A stretch of DNA of 61,673 bases from Ruminococcus sp. Its GTDB lineage: Bacteria > Bacillota > Clostridia > Lachnospirales > Lachnospiraceae. The translations under genes and the position numbers were made by a program. The stretch spans positions 1 through 61,673 of the forward strand of contig JACERV010000032.1 in NCBI GenBank assembly GCA_013911065.1, written 5' to 3'. The notes under the pieces were generated by a model. The model was not told the origin of the DNA, ran no database searches, and worked only from the letters and a program-made list of their open reading frames with translations. This document shows, piece after piece, positions 22,664-43,150 of this stretch. The first letter of the stretch is position 1. Each line of letters starts with the position of its first letter.

Positions 22664-23431
22664 TCAAATATGGCTTCTTCTATACTGCTGTTTCCATTTC
22701 TCCAGTAATAGGGGACTTGGTTCCATCTGTAAATGTTTCTTAATTTCTTCCATTTCCTGCCGCATCTGGGTATTGACCTCTGCATAATCGTCATACTTCG
22801 TCAATAAAATATGGTACTCCTCCAAAGACATATATTTATAAGAAGCGTACAGATACGGCTTCAGAAGTTCTTTATCCTCACAAATCTGATAAGCCCTGTC
22901 GTACATCCGTGCCGACTCCTGATATAGAAAGAGTCTTCCATAGGCTGCACCCAATCCTGCATAAATTTTGCCATAAAACCTGGGATCCACACTGTCATCT
23001 GCCTCCTCATTGAGGATTGCCTGGTATACAAGAATTGCTTCCTCAATCTCACCGCTCTCCAGCAGGTTGTCTCCCTTGAACTTCTGACGTTCAATATCCT
23101 TCTGGTTCTTCAGGCGTTCCAGCACATTTTGAATCCGAATCATCTCCGGCTCTCTGAATATCCTGGAGCTTTTCAGAATTGTTAAAACAAATTTCTCCAC
23201 CGAGCCCCGCATCCGGATGACGTCCCTCAAATCCTTGGCCAGCTCCGGCATCCCAATCTCCTCTTCCAGCCAGGTACAGAGCTGTTCGTTCATAATTGTG
23301 TAATCAACCAGGTAGAGATTATTGCACAGATAGTAACATAATTCTTCAATTGTAAATATCTTGCAGTGAATCCTCGTAATTTCATAAGGATGCGTCGCAT
23401 GTCTGTCATGACAGAGAATTAAACTTCCCAT
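22664..23431 (-). CDS. TPR-like helical protein, third gene of the DUF5717/DUF5716 locus
   Basis: 255 aa, soluble. An N-terminal region of unknown fold (1-110) is followed by tetratricopeptide-like helices (about 115-200: KGDNLLESGEIEEAILVYQAILNE, YAGLGAAYGRLFLYQESARMYDRAYQI) and a charged C-terminal helix. The start at 23431 follows AGGAGGCAACG and lies 26 bp inside the end of the DUF5716 gene, so the two are translationally coupled. TPR domains are common Hsp70 co-factors, which fits the Hsp70-like partner, but no J-domain HPD motif is present. Confidence 0.75.
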   Translation of the reverse strand: MGSLILCHDRHATHPYEITRIHCKIFTIEELCYYLCNNLYLVDYTIMNEQLCTWLEEEIGMPELAKDLRDVIRMRGSVEKFVLTILKSSRIFREPEMIRIQNVLERLKNQKDIERQKFKGDNLLESGEIEEAILVYQAILNEEADDSVDPRFYGKIYAGLGAAYGRLFLYQESARMYDRAYQICEDKELLKPYLYASYKYMSLEEYHILLTKYDDYAEVNTQMRQEMEEIKKHLQMEPSPLLLEKWKQQYRRSHI

Positions 23432-24689
23432 CGTTGCCTCCTAAATGTATAATCTTCTCCTCCTGGAAATCCGTAGGCAGGAAAAACTCCCCAAACCCTA
23501 CATCTCTCACGGTAATCTTACACGTCTTCTCATCCAGAAATAAGGTCTCAATCTGAAGCCGCATGGAGTATTCCCCTCTTTTCGGAAAGTTCTTCAAAGA
23601 AATCACCTCAGTCTTCAAAGTTCCCTGAACCAGTGATTCCACATGCAGTTCGATATCCTCCACATCCTCCAGCAGTACCTCCCACTGATTATTTGACTCA
23701 TACCAGTGCGCGCCCCAGGAGACAATTGGATACCACATTTCCTGTCCGTCCACCCGCATATTAACCGTAATCTGGTCTGTCAGCTTCATTTCCGACAGGT
23801 ACACCGGATCTTCAATATGCATGAACATCTTCCTGTACGCCGTATAACAGGCACCCTTACTATAAAGATTATTTCCAATAAATGCTCTTCTGCCGTTACA
23901 TAATACTCTGAGGGATGTAGGATACCAGTTATTCTCAAATCCTTCTCCCGTCAAAAAAACAGAGGAAACAATCCGCTTATCGAATACACCCTCAATGAAT
24001 TTGCAGAACCTGGTGTCTGCCTCTCTGGCCTTATCCTCATTTAAAACCGGATACACAGCAGCCAGCTCCTTCATATGGGCACTTGCCACCTCATCCACTG
24101 TAACAAAGGTCGTCTTGCCACCTCCCAGTCCAGGCTTCAACCGGCGCAGCATAAATGCTTTGATTTCATTTCTGTCGCAGCAAAACAGAGCTGCTTCATA
24201 CTGCCAGAGCTCTTTAGGCTGGTAAAACAGATAATTGCAGAAGCTTTCCTTGTAATCCTGGATAAAAATATGCCTCTTATCAATATTCATCCGTACCGCA
24301 ATGCCCCGCAGAAGCTGAGCCAGCTCCTCGGTCAGCTCCGGAACACTGAATACAATCCCTTCTATCTGCGGAAAAGACTGAAGTGACATCTGAATAAACT
24401 TAGAAAGCAGCCATACAGCTTCATAAGTCTCTTCCCCGAATTCAATCTTCTCCCCTGACAGACTTTTATCCAGCAGCCGGGTCACCGTAAAGCCTTCCTT
24501 AACAGTGACCAGACGCTTTGCCTCTTTTCCGTAAGCCCAGGTATCTCTCAGCTTGCCAATGATCAGCGGAATCTGATAATTGTCTGAGTCCACCTCAAGG
24601 GTTTCCGGCTCAAGCTGCTGTTCATTATAAAAGCTGATCTGGCAGGTCTTATCATTTATTTCATATCCAATTATATTGCCTTGTCCCAT
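23406..24689 (-). CDS. DUF5716 family protein, predicted degenerate Hsp70/actin-fold protein
   Basis: 427 aa. The order of elements follows DnaK. The first strand-turn-strand is IIGYEINDKTCQISFYN where Hsp70 has IGIDLGTTNS. GIVFSVPELTEELAQLLRG and IFIQDYKESFCNYLFY match VITVPAYFNDAQRQA and IINEPTAAALAYG. AALFCCDRNEIKAFML replaces DLGGGTFDVS. SVFLTGEGFENNWY and FIGNNLYSKGACYTAY match the adenosine motif. The last 110 residues resemble the beta substrate-binding domain (LEKTCKITVRDVGFGE-like region at about 395-410). The glycine and aspartate residues of the phosphate loops are missing, so ATP hydrolysis is doubtful. The start follows AAGGAG. Confidence 0.72.
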   Translation of the reverse strand: MGQGNIIGYEINDKTCQISFYNEQQLEPETLEVDSDNYQIPLIIGKLRDTWAYGKEAKRLVTVKEGFTVTRLLDKSLSGEKIEFGEETYEAVWLLSKFIQMSLQSFPQIEGIVFSVPELTEELAQLLRGIAVRMNIDKRHIFIQDYKESFCNYLFYQPKELWQYEAALFCCDRNEIKAFMLRRLKPGLGGGKTTFVTVDEVASAHMKELAAVYPVLNEDKAREADTRFCKFIEGVFDKRIVSSVFLTGEGFENNWYPTSLRVLCNGRRAFIGNNLYSKGACYTAYRKMFMHIEDPVYLSEMKLTDQITVNMRVDGQEMWYPIVSWGAHWYESNNQWEVLLEDVEDIELHVESLVQGTLKTEVISLKNFPKRGEYSMRLQIETLFLDEKTCKITVRDVGFGEFFLPTDFQEEKIIHLGGNDGKFNSLS

Positions 24690-24729
24690 TACAGGTCTCC
24701 TTCTCTATTTCTGTAATAAGGAAGTTCTT

Positions 24730-24762
24730 TTCGCTAGGTTCGTGAAATACTTCGCTAATCAC
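24730..24762. repeat. Repeat family B element between DUF5717 and DUF5716 genes
   Basis: On the minus strand GATTAGCGAAGTATTTCACG followed by AACCTAGCGAA aligns with TTAGCGAGGTGTTTTCGAGCTTAGTGCGAA in the purF-purB gap. The stem is poorer here. It lies within an 85-bp gap inside the three-gene locus. Confidence 0.5.
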
Positions 24763-24774
24763 TATCGGTCTTAG

Positions 24775-27700
24775 TCAATATTGTTCAAACATGTGTGCTG
24801 CGATTGCGTCTTCTGCTGCATAGGTCTTCATTTTCGCCTCTTTTTCTTTGCCATCACTCAAGAGAATATCATTCAGACACCCATACCTGCCGGATTCTCC
24901 AGCTTTTACTTCTTTTACACAAGTTTCTTTATTACTCCGGTATGTATTTCCGTCAATGATCTCCTTAAAATAATATTTTAACTTTTCATTGGCGAAAAGG
25001 ACAAACTTTTTCACATACAGGTTTTCATACATTGGAGTCAGAACTTCCATTGAGTAGTCTACTTCCTCAGAATCACCTTTTTGAAGCTGATAATAAAGCA
25101 TAACACGGCTGCCCTTCTGACCTTTATACTCTATCAGGGTCTTATCCCAGAGCTGGAGTTCTATCAGCCATTCCTTCTCATAAGCAAGGAAAAACGGAAA
25201 ATAAATCTGTTTTCCACTCAGTTCCTGCAAAAACTTCTTCAGCGTCTTGCGTATCATAGAATTATATTCACGATTAGAATAATACTTCAATACTGCAATC
25301 TTGCAGATATCAATCGTATCTTCTCCCTTTTCATATTCCCTGCATATGATATCAATAATGCTCTTGCCAATCTTCCGGTCTTCCACCACATAACCTCTGG
25401 ACATATAGGCCAGATATGCCTGCTGAAGCCTGAAGTATGCACCTTCCGCGTAATACTCTTCAAATATCTGTACCTCTGCAAACAATTCCTCCGAGAACAG
25501 CATTTGTGTTAGAATCCGCTCTGCCAGCTTATGGGTATGTACCTCATATTCTTTTGCCTCTCTCCAGAGCCTCTTCATATCCACAGTCGCACCGCAGTAG
25601 TAGTTGGCGAGATAGGTCAAAATCACCTTGTCATAATGTCCTTTTTTAAACAACTCAAAGCAGATATAGGTCAGGAAGTCATCATTCTCATAATTATTCT
25701 CCCGGATAGTTCTGCTGCAAAGACTGAATAATTCCTCCTCCGCGTAGCCTTCAACGCCCTTTTCCCTGACAACCTCCAGATTCAGAGTCTCCTCCTCTTC
25801 TTTCTGCCAGTTCATGCGCATACTGTTCAGATACTTTTTACACATATCCATATAGCGGAGTTCATAAAACAGACGCCGGCTCTCATAAGGTATGGAATCT
25901 GTGTAGTGTCTTCCGTCCTTTGACTCCCATACAAGCCTGTCGGTCTTTGCATACAGGAAAACCTGGGCTCCCTTCTCTGTATAAGGTACCCTCTGTGCAA
26001 TGTTTCCGTCATCTGCTATAACATAAATAAACTTCATATTTGGTATTTTAGTTGTAATTTCATAAGCATGACAGATGTCAAACAGGGCTTTGATACGCTC
26101 CGTATTCATGGCACCTTCCACGATAAACCGCTTATAAATAATGCGGAGCCGCTCATCAACATGGCGTCTTTCCAATTGATTCCATGCAAACGCCTCCATC
26201 TCGTCCCTGTAATGGGCATAGATTTCACTGGATTCATCTTCATGGGTAATCAAATTTGAATACAGCAGCGCACACTTCCGGTAGTCAAGCATATTTCCAT
26301 GCATAAAGTACAGGTATACCGACCTTGGCAGCGCCTTATGGAAATGGTTTTCCTGAATAGACGCCATATAATATTCATATAACTGTGCAATCTTCTGCTC
26401 TGATTCCACAGCTTTCTCATACCATTTGAAATAACCGTGTCCTATACAATTCCCCTTAATCAGCAATGTGCAGATAGCAGTGAGAATCATATATTCCTCA
26501 TACATCTTATAAGACAGCACCAGCGCCTCATAAAGGTGTTTGTCAAATTTTTTCAGCTGGCTTGCCAGGTTTGCCGTATACAGTGCCAGCTCTTTTGTCA
26601 TAAGCTTATATTTTGCCGCAAAATGCAGCACCTGTACCTCAAATGCACCCAGTTTTTTTAAGGAAGAACTCTTATCGCGGAAACACTTGAAGGCTTCCAT
26701 ATAAAACCAGATACTGTGTGTTTTCTCCTCATAAAACTGCCGCTCTAATGCACGCAGGCGCTCACTGTAAATTTTATATTCTGAATCCACATTTACCAGC
26801 ATACAAAGAATCATCCAGTTTTCCGGATGTTTCATGTAAGACTTGGACAGCTCCTCCGCCACCCGTCTTTGTCCGATGGAATCATTACTCAATAATGTGG
26901 TAAGATATAAATAGTAGGAACTCATTTCCACATTTTTGCCAATGGCAAACCGGTTATAATTGTAGGATTCCAGAACTAGTTTGGCTTCCTCAAAGCGTTT
27001 GCCAATCAAATAAATATGGGCATGGACAAGCAAATACAATTCGTTTTTGTTGTCTCCCTCCCTCAGATGTTCAATCTTCTTTAGCGATTCCTCCGTCCAT
27101 GTATTCAGGTCAATCCGTCCTGCTTCATAGGTCAGATACCGCTTTATGATACTGGCAAACTCCAGATCTGAGGCACGGTATTCTTCGTCCCGCCTCACAT
27201 CCTTCTCTACTACAATCTCATAAATAAGAGTTTCATAAGGCGTCTCAATTACAATCTGTCCAAAATTGCTTCCTTTGTGAAGCTGTTCTGTTGTAATGAT
27301 GTATTCTAGCCGGTATGAATTTCCAATAAACTCCTCCGTAGAAATCTTAGGGTGCTCTACAGTCAGAAAATCCCCCACTGTACGCACATCAATAGAAAGA
27401 TATCCCCACGTGTTCTTCTTCACCGTAAGAGTCTCTTTCCGTGCCTCCGGCACTTCCATAAAAGCACGGCTCTCCTCCTCCAGCGTCAGGAATATCTTTT
27501 CTTTCTGCTTGCAGCCCACCAGGAACTCCTCAAGTGCCTGCTGGTCCAGCTCCCATTTCCGCATATTATCATAAAGTGCCTGGATACGCTTGTCCTCGTA
27601 TTTTAATATTTCATAGAAATCTCTGGAACGAAACAGCTTCTCAGCCTCCGCTGAATCACGGAAAGAAAGCTTCTTAAAATCTTCCAAGCTCTGCACTTTC

Positions 27701-28074
27701 CCATAACTTGTCATAACAAAGGGCTTTTCAATAATTGCCGTAAATGCAACGTCATACTCACCACCGTTGCAGACAATCGTAAACTTGCCATGCTCAACAT
27801 GCCCGGGAACAAGCCCCGAGCCATCATATGTATAATAGATATTAACCGGGTTTCCATCGAAGCCCTGTTCCTCACAATGGACACGATAAGAAGAGGGATA
27901 TACAAGCCCTCTGATGGTCCCCTCACCCTGATTCTGTAAGGAAAAACTTCCTTTATACATTTCCCCTTCTCCGACACGCATAATAACCCGCGTCTCCGGG
28001 AAAATAATCTCTGGCTGTGGAATGTGGAAATCTCCTTTGGAAAGACGTTTAATCTTATTCTTCAAGTTCGTCAC
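24775..28074 (-). CDS. DUF5717 family giant protein, Ig-like N-terminus plus long helical repeat region
   Basis: 1099 aa, cytoplasmic by sequence (no signal peptide, no membrane segment). Residues about 15-115 form an Ig-like beta sandwich of the ASPM-SPD2-Hydin flavour (PEIIFPETRVIMRVGEG, GSFSLQNQGEGTIRGLVYP, FTIVCNGGEYDVAFTAII). A second beta domain is near 225-300. From about 310 to 900 it is alpha-helical, TPR/HEAT-like, rich in Tyr, Glu and Arg. A mixed region near 680-760 (IYVIADDGNIAQRVPYTE) precedes more helices. The start is uncertain: GTG at 28074 or TTG at 28065, the latter better spaced from AGGTG. First gene of the locus. Confidence 0.75.
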   Translation of the reverse strand: MTNLKNKIKRLSKGDFHIPQPEIIFPETRVIMRVGEGEMYKGSFSLQNQGEGTIRGLVYPSSYRVHCEEQGFDGNPVNIYYTYDGSGLVPGHVEHGKFTIVCNGGEYDVAFTAIIEKPFVMTSYGKVQSLEDFKKLSFRDSAEAEKLFRSRDFYEILKYEDKRIQALYDNMRKWELDQQALEEFLVGCKQKEKIFLTLEEESRAFMEVPEARKETLTVKKNTWGYLSIDVRTVGDFLTVEHPKISTEEFIGNSYRLEYIITTEQLHKGSNFGQIVIETPYETLIYEIVVEKDVRRDEEYRASDLEFASIIKRYLTYEAGRIDLNTWTEESLKKIEHLREGDNKNELYLLVHAHIYLIGKRFEEAKLVLESYNYNRFAIGKNVEMSSYYLYLTTLLSNDSIGQRRVAEELSKSYMKHPENWMILCMLVNVDSEYKIYSERLRALERQFYEEKTHSIWFYMEAFKCFRDKSSSLKKLGAFEVQVLHFAAKYKLMTKELALYTANLASQLKKFDKHLYEALVLSYKMYEEYMILTAICTLLIKGNCIGHGYFKWYEKAVESEQKIAQLYEYYMASIQENHFHKALPRSVYLYFMHGNMLDYRKCALLYSNLITHEDESSEIYAHYRDEMEAFAWNQLERRHVDERLRIIYKRFIVEGAMNTERIKALFDICHAYEITTKIPNMKFIYVIADDGNIAQRVPYTEKGAQVFLYAKTDRLVWESKDGRHYTDSIPYESRRLFYELRYMDMCKKYLNSMRMNWQKEEEETLNLEVVREKGVEGYAEEELFSLCSRTIRENNYENDDFLTYICFELFKKGHYDKVILTYLANYYCGATVDMKRLWREAKEYEVHTHKLAERILTQMLFSEELFAEVQIFEEYYAEGAYFRLQQAYLAYMSRGYVVEDRKIGKSIIDIICREYEKGEDTIDICKIAVLKYYSNREYNSMIRKTLKKFLQELSGKQIYFPFFLAYEKEWLIELQLWDKTLIEYKGQKGSRVMLYYQLQKGDSEEVDYSMEVLTPMYENLYVKKFVLFANEKLKYYFKEIIDGNTYRSNKETCVKEVKAGESGRYGCLNDILLSDGKEKEAKMKTYAAEDAIAAHMFEQY

Positions 28075-28261
28075 CTACTCATGTTTCTTTCGTTGCATTT
28101 TTTTATAAGCACGCTATAATAGAAAATGAAAAATAAATTTTTCACTCTGACGTTTGTGATTCCCCCTTTGCGGGCAAGTAAAATCACTACACTCAATTAT
28201 AGCATCTTTATAGCATTTCTTGCAACGGGTGAATAAAAGAATTTGAAAGGAGATTGTATAC

Positions 28262-29356
28262 ATGAATACAAGACCAGAATTTCACGGGAGCGACCTGGAA
28301 AAAATCGCAGAGCACTACGGGATTCCGAAAGATTCCATTATCAATTTCGGCGCAAATGTAAATCCCCTCGGGCTCTCTGAAAACGTAAAAGCAGAGGTGG
28401 CCCGTCGTCTTGACATCATCTCCTCCTATCCAGACAGAGAATACACTTCTCTGCGTCATGTTATTGGAGATTACTGTCAGGTTTCCCCCTCCCATGTACT
28501 GGTAGGAAATGGTTCTACTGAGCTCATCTCTCTTCTTATAGAACAGATGCATCCAAAAAAGACCTTGATTCTGGGCCCTACCTATTCGGAGTATGCCAGA
28601 GAGCTTTCTTTAGGGGGTAATACTCAGGAATATTATCATCTGGACTCTAGTACTGCTTTCCGCCTGGATATCCCTAATTTTCTAAAAAGACTGCAGGCCC
28701 GTTATGACCTGCTCATCATATGCAACCCTAATAACCCCACCTCCTCTGTTATTTCCACAGAAGAGATGAGGCAGATTCTTGACGTGTGTAAGGAAATCGG
28801 AACCTTTGTCATGATTGATGAAACCTATGTAGAATTTGCTCCGGTTCTTTCCCAGGCCACTTCCATGCCGCTGGTAAAAGATTTTGATAATTTCATCATC
28901 CTGCGCGGAGTCTCCAAGTTCTTTGCGGCTCCCGGCCTGCGCCTTGGCTACGGAGTAACCAGCAGCTACCCCCTCCTTGAAGGAATCAAGGAACACCAGA
29001 TTCCCTGGTCCCTGAACAGTATCGGATCTCTTGCAGGTGAGCTTATGCTTCAGGACACCGGATACATCCAAAAAACCAGAGAGCTTATTCTCTCTGAGAG
29101 AACCCGGATGCTGGAAGAACTGCGCCGCCTTCCTCATATCACCGTCTACGATGCAGCAGCCAATTTTATCCTGATTCAAATACACAAAGACAATACCACA
29201 GCCTATGACATCTTTGAGTCCTGTATAAAAAAAGGGCTCATGATACGCGACTGTTCTTCCTTCCAATGCCTGGAAGGTGAATACGTACGCTTTTGTATCA
29301 TGAACCCTGAGGATAATACACATCTCTTAAATATTTTGCGGGAAGCTCTCGCTTAA
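28262..29356 (+). CDS. Class I/II PLP aminotransferase, CobD/HisC-like
   Basis: 364 aa. The PLP fold is clear: INFGANVNPLG near the N-terminus, GNGSTELISLL, ICNPNNPTSSV, VMIDETYVEFAP and the Schiff-base lysine in LRGVSKFFAAPGLRLGYG (about K219). The N-terminal FHGSDLEKIAEHYGI and INFGANVNPLG resemble L-threonine-O-3-phosphate decarboxylase (CobD) as much as histidinol-phosphate aminotransferase. No cobalamin or histidine genes are near, so the reaction is left open. Divergent from the DUF5717 locus. The start follows AAAGGAG. Confidence 0.88.
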   Translation: MNTRPEFHGSDLEKIAEHYGIPKDSIINFGANVNPLGLSENVKAEVARRLDIISSYPDREYTSLRHVIGDYCQVSPSHVLVGNGSTELISLLIEQMHPKKTLILGPTYSEYARELSLGGNTQEYYHLDSSTAFRLDIPNFLKRLQARYDLLIICNPNNPTSSVISTEEMRQILDVCKEIGTFVMIDETYVEFAPVLSQATSMPLVKDFDNFIILRGVSKFFAAPGLRLGYGVTSSYPLLEGIKEHQIPWSLNSIGSLAGELMLQDTGYIQKTRELILSERTRMLEELRRLPHITVYDAAANFILIQIHKDNTTAYDIFESCIKKGLMIRDCSSFQCLEGEYVRFCIMNPEDNTHLLNILREALA

Positions 29357-42911: not shown

Positions 42912-42952
42912 TTTTTATGTAATAGGAAAAGCACTTTCCTATTACATAAAAA
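42912..42952. promoter_or_regulatory. Perfect 18-bp hairpin in the mef leader, after the attenuator
   Basis: Arms TTTTTATGTAATAGGAAA and its exact complement around a 5-nt loop. On the minus-strand transcript it follows the leader terminator and shares part of its T-run, about 55 nt before the mef start. It could act as a second attenuation structure or protect the mRNA 5' region. Confidence 0.75.
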
Positions 42953-42991
42953 AATGCAGACCCGAATCCACAATGTGACTTTGGTCTGCAT
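42948..42991 (-). terminator. Leader terminator (attenuator) upstream of the mef gene
   Basis: Minus strand: ATGCAGACC, a 20-nt loop, GGTCTGCAT and then seven T residues (42948-42954). It lies between the MTASMRLR leader peptide and mef, the place needed for transcription attenuation. Confidence 0.82.
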
Positions 42992-43123
42992 ACAATACGA
43001 GAGCTCTAAGAAAGATATAGCCAAAAAGGCTATGTCCTATCACAGGGATTGCTCAATACTGTAAAAATAAGCACAACAAAAAAGTCTACCACCGTAGATT
43101 CATTCTGTCTTTTTATTACCAGC

Positions 43124-43150
43124 TTATCTTAAACGCATTGAAGCAGTCAT
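43124..43150 (-). CDS. Macrolide-sensing leader peptide MTASMRLR
   Basis: ATG at 43150 and TAA at 43124-43126, preceded by GGGGGAAG. The 8-residue product ends in Arg-Leu-Arg, a +x+ motif at which macrolide-bound ribosomes stall, as in ErmDL (MTHSMRLR...). I recall the same octapeptide as the mefL leader of mef/mel elements in streptococci. Stalling here would let RNA polymerase read through the downstream terminator and express mef. Confidence 0.85.
   Translation of the reverse strand: MTASMRLR

Follow-up and report, generated by a model that had tools for sequence, protein, structure and literature searches.

Three adjacent genes of Ruminococcus sp., encoding DUF5717, DUF5716 and a TPR protein, may specify the subunits of a single stable complex in the cytosol, derived from a chaperone machine with several Hsp70s (probability about 0.6). 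In the complex that we propose, DUF5716 would be a pseudo-Hsp70 subunit in which the body of Hsp70 is retained together with the beta substrate-binding domain (SBD-beta); since it should neither bind ATP nor be opened by GrpE, it would bind peptides or segments of its partners passively, much as a lidless Hsp70 locked in a single state would do. DUF5717 would be the large scaffold, an Ig-like pair plus a solenoid, and the TPR protein would be clamped to DUF5716. A two-helix membrane coiled coil may tether the complex in about two fifths of the genomes of the family, Lachnospiraceae. In sister families the same scaffold would carry three Hsp70s with an intact ATP signature and a GrpE-domain protein, both of which the present family would have shed while keeping the passive part.

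The three-gene locus

The locus lies in a stretch of 61,673 nucleotides, the whole of which is called the window here. A preliminary description, made from the letters and a list of open reading frames, had placed three minus-strand genes in it, with an overlap of 26 bp between the DUF5716 and TPR genes. Both the positions and the overlap agree with the list of open reading frames:

24775..28074, minus strand: DUF5717 gene, open reading frame of 1099 aa with a GTG start (Pfam PF18984/PF18983, AlphaFold2, Foldseek)
23406..24689, minus strand: DUF5716 gene, open reading frame of 427 aa (Pfam, profile search against the PDB, AlphaFold2, Foldseek, hhalign, tree)
22664..23431, minus strand: TPR protein gene, open reading frame of 255 aa (alignment, profile search against the PDB)
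23406..23431, minus strand: overlap of the DUF5716 and TPR genes, 26 bases (list of open reading frames)
28196..28225, minus strand: promoter-like site ahead of DUF5717, with an extended -10 (by consensus match alone, 10/12)

Pfam recognizes DUF5717_N (E 3.5e-209) and DUF5717 (3e-99) in the first protein and DUF5716_C (1.4e-97) in the second; for the third, of 255 residues, it gives TPR matches only, all under the curated cut-offs. The start of the TPR gene inside the overlap is credible because the N-terminus can be aligned in relatives, the closest of which read MGSLILC. Promoter-like sites of the kind seen upstream of DUF5717 number 19 in the stretch, with 13.1 expected by chance. Literature searches under the names DUF5716 and DUF5717 found no role for the trio, as the preliminary description had stated; the single paper that contains either name looks unrelated from its title.

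A predicted lidless Hsp70 fold

Profile comparison and structure prediction identify DUF5716 as a degenerate Hsp70 fold without a lid. The layout is that of Hsp70, an actin-like nucleotide-binding domain (NBD) and then SBD-beta, in the profile search, the AlphaFold2 model, the Foldseek matches and the alignment with DnaK:

23823..24689, minus strand: remnant NBD, DUF5716 residues 1-289 (alignment occupancy and residue counts; the exact edge depends on the alignment)
23442..23771, minus strand: SBD-beta, DUF5716 residues 307-416 (second stretch of the profile search against the PDB, AlphaFold2 model, DnaK alignment)

The six best PDB matches of the DUF5716 profile are DnaKs, with whole-sequence E of 0.0025-0.0096 (the next match has E = 1), single stretches being weak (best i-Evalue 0.27 and 0.5 in two alignments). 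Profile-profile alignment with DnaK covers 389 columns (E 8.4e-7, probability 91.5), and with the profile search and the model it upholds the DnaK order of elements that had been read from the letters. The predicted fold is Hsp70-like, as had been supposed: of the 50 PDB matches listed for the AlphaFold2 model, 48 bear Hsp70-family titles, and two are ciliary complexes whose titles leave the chain unnamed. With modest global TM-scores to Hsp70s (0.41-0.51 in the listed rows, normalized by query length) and a pLDDT of 74.8, the model leaves the orientation of the domains unsure. PF00012 (Hsp70) gave no listed match on the window's DUF5716 at E up to 1; it does match (1.4e-17) the orthologous Hsp70-B of L203, described below.

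The GxPxR and DxGFGE motifs of DUF5716 align with the SBD-beta of DnaK. Conservation within the family bears on a purely structural reading, in which SBD-beta has lost its peptide binding and the Hsp70 fold serves as a brick joining DUF5717 to the TPR protein. Conservation peaks at the end of lobe IIA (residues 242-289), where the mean top-residue share is 0.62; it is 0.46 in the linker and SBD-beta and 0.44 in residues 1-157, which gives the peptide domain no special conservation. The lid and the ATP signature are also gone, and the fusion of DUF5716 to the TPR protein described below fits a fixed assembly. On the other hand, SBD-beta is aligned in 30/30 rows and accounts for four of the eight residues that are invariant (R371, D396, G398, G400), and Ssz1, also lidless and non-hydrolysing, binds substrate (PMC7083937). 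We regard the structural reading as rather unlikely and favor passive binding by SBD-beta.

Loss of the ATP signature and of most of subdomain IIB

Residues were counted over 30 aligned rows of DUF5716 and numbered by the DnaK of the window's own genome. The phosphate-binding set of Hsp70 (T11, T12, K70, E147, G171-G173, T174) survives in 0/30 to 4/30 rows: T11, T12, K70, E147 and T174 are each kept in 0/30, G171 in 2/30, G172 in 4/30 and G173 in 1/30. The earlier claim that the glycines and aspartates which bind phosphate are gone is thus correct for the glycines (1/30-4/30), whereas the aspartates are lost in only part of the family: D8 is kept in 26/30 rows and D169 in 19/30, both being lost in the window protein, and G312 is kept in 30/30.

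Because D8, D169 and G312 survive in many rows, a weak or altered ligand site is possible, and folds of the actin type can bind ligands besides ATP. DUF5716 might then have a modified mode of binding, for a nucleotide or some other small ligand, which would make the complex a sensor or switch instead of a chaperone. The loss of T11, T12, K70 and E147 in every row, of the GGGT loop in nearly all and of most of subdomain IIB makes this quite improbable.

The missing part of IIB, a point absent from the preliminary description, amounts to about 75 residues of the NBD. The equivalent of DnaK ~186-260 is absent between DUF5716 residues ~185 and ~217; DnaK residues 191-260 are occupied in 0-3% of rows, leaving no complete IIB, and between GGGT and the adenosine motif DUF5716 has 60-78 residues, versus 140-143 in DnaK and 132-161 in Hsp70-B. 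Gaps replace the GrpE-contact helix block RLKEAAEKAKKELS in 97% of the 30 rows; in E. coli DnaK, GrpE contacts the IIB helix 255-272 (PMC10825016). The alpha-helical lid is likewise missing: DnaK 481-530 has no aligned counterpart and 471-480 is occupied at 10%, the aligner placing the short C-terminal tails of DUF5716 further on, and the AlphaFold2 model has no helix after SBD-beta.

DUF5717 and the TPR protein

In its AlphaFold2 model (pLDDT 83.2, pTM 0.44) DUF5717 looks like an Ig-like pair on a helical solenoid, a scaffold-like fold. Two Ig-like (ASH/MSP/HYDIN-like) beta domains precede helical repeats that are broken by two further beta regions:

27694..27990, minus strand: first Ig-like beta domain, DUF5717 residues 29-127 (model secondary structure, fold matches)
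27202..27489, minus strand: second Ig-like beta domain, residues 196-291 (model secondary structure)
26071..27186, minus strand: first helical-repeat block, residues 297-668 (model secondary structure)

The model and Foldseek confirm the Ig-like N-terminus and helical repeats that had been expected. The preliminary description had gone on to infer a non-hydrolysing Hsp70-fold scaffold with a giant client-binding partner; a scaffold that should not hydrolyse ATP, judging from its residues, stands, but DUF5717 as the giant client binder finds no support, its fold looking like that of a scaffold. The third protein, described as TPR-like, is so by profile search: PDB chains hit by its family profile include both designed and natural TPRs (best 9.9e-43). 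The N-terminal region is conserved, and the TPR repeats occupy profile positions ~121-193.

A constant three-gene unit under constraint

Presence of the two DUFs in the family is near-universal and mostly single-copy, with DUF5716 in 145/150 genomes and DUF5717 in 147/150; two of the 150, 93% and 98% complete, lack both. In all 39 DUF5716-holding loci (40 fetched), DUF5717 lies upstream and the TPR protein downstream or fused. These counts support a constant DUF5717-DUF5716-TPR unit and run against the possibility, raised earlier, that the three are rarely together. The fusion of DUF5716 to the TPR protein occurs in 5/39 diverse loci (two changes on the tree), and the 34 unfused loci show an overlap of the two genes in 19 and a gap of at most 30 bases in 33. 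One genome (L155) has DUF5717 with neither DUF5716 nor the TPR gene nearby; a termite-gut genome (L088) has both DUFs and no TPR gene within 3 kb downstream, which implies that the TPR protein is not strictly needed. At wider scale, DUF5716_C was found in 5/398 genomes of the phylum, all from this family, and DUF5717_N in 11/291 of the class, ten of them from this family and one match below the curated cut-off.

Pseudogene decay was rejected on the dN/dS values: of 21 gene comparisons, 15 had a computable dS and gave 0.008-0.040 (in the other six dS was saturated and dN/dS not computable); the only comparisons far from saturation, those with L036, gave 0.008-0.023. Candidates for a constant fourth neighbor were genes that we take to be valS-like (15 of 40 loci), purB-like (11) and an aminotransferase (9), and they look like shared synteny, not system parts.

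The membrane coiled-coil protein accompanies 17/40 loci, with 64 convincing matches in the 150 family genomes (65 minus one short weak one). Over half of the family lacks it, the window's genome included. All 17 examined carry two or three hydrophobic windows mid-protein; the three window proteins have none.

A fuller operon in sister families

Other families of the order carry a colinear operon, DUF5717 - Hsp70-A - GrpE-domain protein - Hsp70-B - Hsp70-C - Hsp70-D with VWA - TPR, to which a membrane coiled coil is sometimes added; no description of it was found in literature searches. All seven genes are present, in the same order in our table, in 14/20 regions fetched at the level of the order. 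Hsp70-A, Hsp70-C and Hsp70-D keep the ATP signature, and Hsp70-B had largely lost it. Hsp70-A, B and C end 140-215 residues past the adenosine motif, versus 305-321 in DnaK.

By sequence comparison DUF5716 is the orthologue of Hsp70-B. The hhalign comparison of the two spans 429 columns (E 2.9e-59), a quick tree groups them apart from A, C, D and DnaK (SH-aLRT 100), with support of 99 for the DUF5716 clade and 99 for Hsp70-B of L196 as its sister, and DUF5716 holds the place of Hsp70-B in the colinear gene order. The search for paralogues across the family was made with Hsp70-C: the best match in 150 family genomes scored 201 bits, the level of DnaK, and positive controls scored 945-1081 bits in 6/6 sister genomes not used in the model. 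The single match among 196 class genomes at E up to 1e-65 scores as DnaK (994 bits versus 226 for the Hsp70-C model). The window locus looks like what is left of a larger operon that had four Hsp70s and a GrpE-domain protein. This family appears to have kept the dead Hsp70, the scaffold and the TPR protein of it; sister families keep what seems to be the fuller machine.

Comparison with known systems

A close parallel in the literature is Ssz1 of the fungal ribosome-associated complex (RAC), which, as proposed for DUF5716, has an Hsp70 fold and no lid, does not hydrolyse ATP, has a complete SBD-beta, sits in a stable complex and needs no classical exchange factor (PMC7083937). Two RAC entries, 5mb9 and 6sr6, rank in the top 20 of the fold matches of the DUF5716 model. 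However, Ssz1 still binds ATP and its partner, Zuo1, is a J protein, whereas DUF5716 lacks the ATP signature and most of IIB, its neighbors are DUF5717 and the TPR protein, and no J-domain partner was found. The sister-family operon recalls DnaK-GrpE-DnaJ in that it combines a GrpE-domain protein with Hsp70s whose ATP signature is complete, but it holds four Hsp70 paralogues, one degenerate and one with a VWA domain. The J co-factor that the preliminary description had brought in was not seen: Pfam listed no J domain among the trio and ten operon proteins, the list for the TPR protein of L203 stopping short of its two weakest families. The viral Hsp70 homologue of closteroviruses, HSP70h, which has a structural role in virions, also matches the DUF5716 model, from an unrelated viral context.

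A similar parts list is found in the GTPase-centred conflict systems with GAP1-N2 (Kaur et al. 2020, PMC7159879), whose class includes HSP70, GrpE, FNIII fused to TPR or DnaJ and, in other themes, vWA. That our locus is part of or derived from such systems is highly improbable. They are centred on GTPases and GAP1, neither of which appears in the trio and ten operon proteins by Pfam, in which GAP1 may have no model; their authors tie them to organisms of multicellular habit, not to one family's near-universal set, and the near-universal, mostly single-copy presence seen here is unlike that of a defence island. PADLOC found no family for any of the trio; of the operon proteins, three matched in part (Hsp70-C 8.7e-11, Hsp70-D 4.4e-7, TPR protein 4e-6), which we take as a sign of shared domains. 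A defence system was rejected on these grounds as the main reading.

Conclusions

On somewhat better than even odds, the order holds an undescribed Hsp70 machine that may comprise as many as eight proteins (DUF5717, three live Hsp70s including the one with VWA, the dead Hsp70, the GrpE-domain protein, the TPR adaptor and the membrane coiled coil), from which the window's family has discarded the ATP-using parts and the exchange factor while keeping the dead Hsp70 and the scaffold in nearly all species as a passive, ATP-free core device. Pseudo-Hsp70s are known from eukaryotes, as in Ssz1; we know of no bacterial pseudo-Hsp70 that has outlived its live partners. One locus in two states, with and without its engine, would let nature itself show what the body of an Hsp70 can do when ATP is not used. 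The proposal offers an origin for the DUF5716 and DUF5717 families at once, and gives a near-universal gene set of a dominant gut family its first testable mechanism.

The locus and its surroundings

All three genes are encoded on the minus strand, with the overlap already noted in the preliminary description, in a 4.3 Mb genome of which the window is contig C38:

24775-28074, minus, DUF5717 gene (open reading frame and Pfam)
23406-24689, minus, DUF5716 gene (open reading frame and Pfam)
22664-23431, minus, gene of the 255-aa TPR protein (open reading frame; 26 bases in common with the DUF5716 gene)

Promoter-like sites, which are consensus matches only (19 found versus 13.1 expected), stand 5′ of DUF5717 and where the third gene ends, ahead of the downstream ABC-transporter gene. 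The nearest named record for DUF5716 is Faecalicatena contorta NLAE-zl-C134 at 99.5% identity (full BLAST, best 80 of 584 loci); many of the names among the 80 named records are those of Lachnospiraceae genera, and "the family" denotes throughout the one to which the window's genome is assigned. A divergent aminotransferase-like gene lies 5′ of the locus in the window (28262-29356) and in sister-family operons L197, L199, L202, L203, L212 and L213, and because of this shared neighbor the genomic site looks ancestral. Elsewhere in the window, 42947-43147 (minus) matches Rfam family sRNA_1300 (96 bits, E 1.3e-20), which was described from Enterococcus.

DUF5716 has an Hsp70-like fold by profile and model

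That DUF5716 follows the order of elements of DnaK was proposed from sequence inspection and is borne out by profile, profile-profile and predicted-fold comparisons, all of which lead to Hsp70/DnaK. A profile built from 30 family sequences matched six DnaK sequences in the PDB (whole-sequence E 0.0025-0.0096), the next match coming only at E = 1; the two alignments displayed place the start of the nucleotide-binding domain (NBD) and the end of the beta substrate-binding domain in the correct order, each single stretch being weak. Compared with eight DnaKs of the order, DUF5716 aligned over 389 columns (E 8.4e-7, probability 91.5). An AlphaFold2 model (44 sequences of at least 55% identity; pLDDT 74.8, pTM 0.74) gave PDB fold matches of E 5.6e-16 to 1.1e-11 among 50 listed, 48 of them titled Hsp70-type (DnaK, BiP, Hsc70, Hsp110, RAC and others) and two ciliary complexes. 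The best viral fold matches are likewise Hsp70s; HSP70h has a role in the virion. TM-scores against Hsp70s are modest (0.41-0.51) and the whole-chain rmsd is large, as expected if the two domains of DUF5716 are placed differently.

Loss of residues and subdomains

Fourteen positions were counted in 30 DUF5716 sequences, with numbering taken from the genome's own DnaK (L121). T11, T12, K70, E147, T174 and G313 are kept in none, G10 in 10, G171 in 2, G172 in 4 and G173 in 1, and D8 (26/30), D169 (19/30) and G312 (30/30) persist. The earlier claim that the phosphate-binding glycines and aspartates are gone thus holds largely for the glycines (G171-G173 in 1-4/30) and, for the two aspartates, in only part of the family; the window protein lacks both aspartates, keeping G312 alone of the 14 positions. 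DnaK residues 191-260 have almost no counterpart (0-3% of sequences), so that most of NBD subdomain IIB is gone, the GrpE-contact helix included. In E. coli DnaK, helix 255-272 contacts GrpE (PMC10825016); equating it with part of the missing stretch is our own transfer of numbering. The lid is also absent.

A larger Hsp70 operon in sister families

Across the order, the DUF5716 profile matches in 123/246 genomes, mostly far more weakly outside the family. Of twenty order-level regions fetched, 18 come from 17 genomes of 8 sister families, and the other two, L206 and L207, carry the family-type trio, L206 belonging to the window's own family. Fourteen of the 20 contain, in this order, DUF5717, Hsp70-A, a GrpE-domain protein, Hsp70-B, Hsp70-C, Hsp70-D and the TPR protein, with additional genes interspersed in L215. 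The other four sister regions comprise L200 and L201, from one genome with the operon broken up, L208, where neither DUF5717 nor the TPR gene is close by, and L210, which is cut off by the contig edge. In operon L203, Pfam finds Hsp70 in A (5e-76), B (1.4e-17), C (7e-63) and D (4.5e-96), DUF5716_C in B (1.5e-26) and C (7.5e-10), VWA in D (1.9e-10), and GrpE in the fifth protein (3e-13).

DUF5717_N occurs in 122/246 order genomes, 120 above cut-off, and by label count in 16/25 families, one of which, f147, rests on the doubtful L207 genome and a sub-threshold match. L207 (G706:C40) has the trio typical of the window's family and comes from a genome (completeness 86%, contamination 5%) that is assigned to a different family of the order; its DUF5716 is placed inside the window family's clade, and the trio represents either transfer or contamination. 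DUF5717 appears as two genes in 10/18 sister regions and is a single gene in L203 and L214. Both parts are in-frame with a stop codon between them (TAG three times, TGA, TAA) in five of the ten split cases (L199, L202, L205, L210 and L213).

On sequence evidence, DUF5716 is the Hsp70-B of this operon. The two align over 429 columns (E 2.9e-59), and in a quick tree of 109 sequences, with SH-aLRT support only, DUF5716 forms a single clade (99) whose sister is the Hsp70-B of L196 (99), while a branch of support 100 separates A, C, D and DnaK from DUF5716/Hsp70-B. Hsp70-B as a whole takes two label changes on the tree, and the branching order of its members is unsure because several have long branches. 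In L196 (G551:C25), Hsp70-D and the TPR protein are each spread over two frames and the GrpE-domain protein, at 279 aa, is short, through either early decay or assembly error.

The full signature D8, G10, T11, T12, K70, E147, D169, G171-G173 and T174 is kept by A (16/16), C (17/17) and D (16/17, the exception being the partial frame of L196). Hsp70-B keeps D8 in 17/17 and T11 in 5/17, and T12, K70, G173 and T174 in 0/17; it retains an IIB stretch of 132-161 residues. Loss of the ATP signature therefore seems to have preceded loss of IIB, since Hsp70-B is without most of the signature yet has the IIB stretch. Loss of IIB coincides with loss of the GrpE-domain gene. Hsp70-C was not found in 150 family genomes, where the top score (201 bits) is at DnaK level; the positive control scored 945-1081 bits in 6/6 sister genomes outside the model. 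Of the extra Hsp70s in ten family genomes, the three examined as loci (L131-L133) are DnaK-type.

The trio is conserved and constrained

The neighborhood survey bore out the expected constant co-occurrence of the three genes. DUF5716_C is present in 145/150 family genomes, DUF5717_N in 147 and both in 144; two have neither (G029, G091) and four only one, of which G020, G128 and G146 are 67-69% complete and G098 is 99% complete with its DUF5717 at a contig edge. Among the best 80 of 584 related loci, which are close relatives, DUF5717 lies upstream, complete or partial, in all 80 and the TPR gene downstream in 78, the others being L041 (contig edge) and L088 (none over 3 kb). L088 (11250-14358), from a termite-gut genome, has DUF5717 and DUF5716. 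In L070 (JCM 15917 draft), DUF5716 is intact and both of its neighbors, DUF5717 and the TPR gene, are fragmented.

Forty regions were picked for divergence, contig size and long frames, 39 around DUF5716 and one around DUF5717. DUF5716 is present in 39/40, with DUF5717 upstream in 39/39 (at most 100 bases away in 38) and the TPR protein in 39/39. The latter is at most 30 bases away in 33/34 unfused cases and fused to DUF5716 in five, long-frame regions having been chosen deliberately (DUF5716 frames of at least 690 aa occur in 5/145 genomes). The fusions take two changes on the tree; one change suffices in 0/200 bootstrap trees.

Compared with locus L036, the trio shows synonymous differences of 0.13-0.21 and amino-acid-changing differences of 0.002-0.003. 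All 15 computable comparisons gave dN/dS of 0.008-0.040, with dS above 1 except in those with L036. As amino-acid change is far below synonymous change, the protein is under strict constraint; a decaying gene is ruled out by these ratios.

Proposed partner proteins

The Ig-like N-terminus and long helical repeats attributed to DUF5717 reappear in its predicted structure (37 sequences, pLDDT 83.2, pTM 0.44), which has four beta regions (residues 29-127, 196-291, 670-734, 978-1053) and two helical blocks (297-668, 739-972). The best PDB fold matches, starting at E 5.6e-8 and extending over some 290 columns, are ciliary central-pair protein domains and the SPD-2 domain of CEP192, followed at lower rank by helical solenoids (Ski, PAF, IFT, PPR10); we take these entries to be Ig-like and TPR-like. 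In the window clade DUF5717 is about 1100 aa and its PF18984 match ends near position 773/875; in much of the family it is about 1190 aa with a full match. The third protein is TPR-like, as supposed: a profile of 35 small proteins matches TPR chains (best 9.9e-43, positions about 121-193). No membrane-type hydrophobic window is present in any protein of the trio.

In 17/40 regions the TPR gene is followed by a gene for a protein of some 390 aa, in which neighboring hydrophobic stretches are flanked by polar arms. This membrane coiled-coil protein has matches in 65/150 family genomes (in G059 short and weak only) and none in the window's genome, follows the locus in 4/20 order-level regions, and in the one example scanned matched no Pfam family above cut-off.

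Discussion

No description of this operon was found in the literature searched, which included PMC7159879 and had most subscription papers and all bioRxiv preprints outside its scope; searching DUF5716 and DUF5717 by name gave nothing relevant by title. The nearest experimental precedent is Ssz1, which like DUF5716 is lidless. Ssz1 binds ATP without hydrolyzing it, is completed by a partner, binds substrate with low affinity and does not need a classical exchange factor (PMC7083937). DUF5716 goes further in loss: Ssz1 still binds ATP, whereas DUF5716 is without the ATP signature.

We propose that DUF5716 would not bind ATP and would act as a passive binding or bracing subunit, possibly for clients, mounted on a DUF5717 scaffold. 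The TPR protein may form a complex with both, serving as a clamp, and the coiled-coil membrane protein, where present, would tether this complex.
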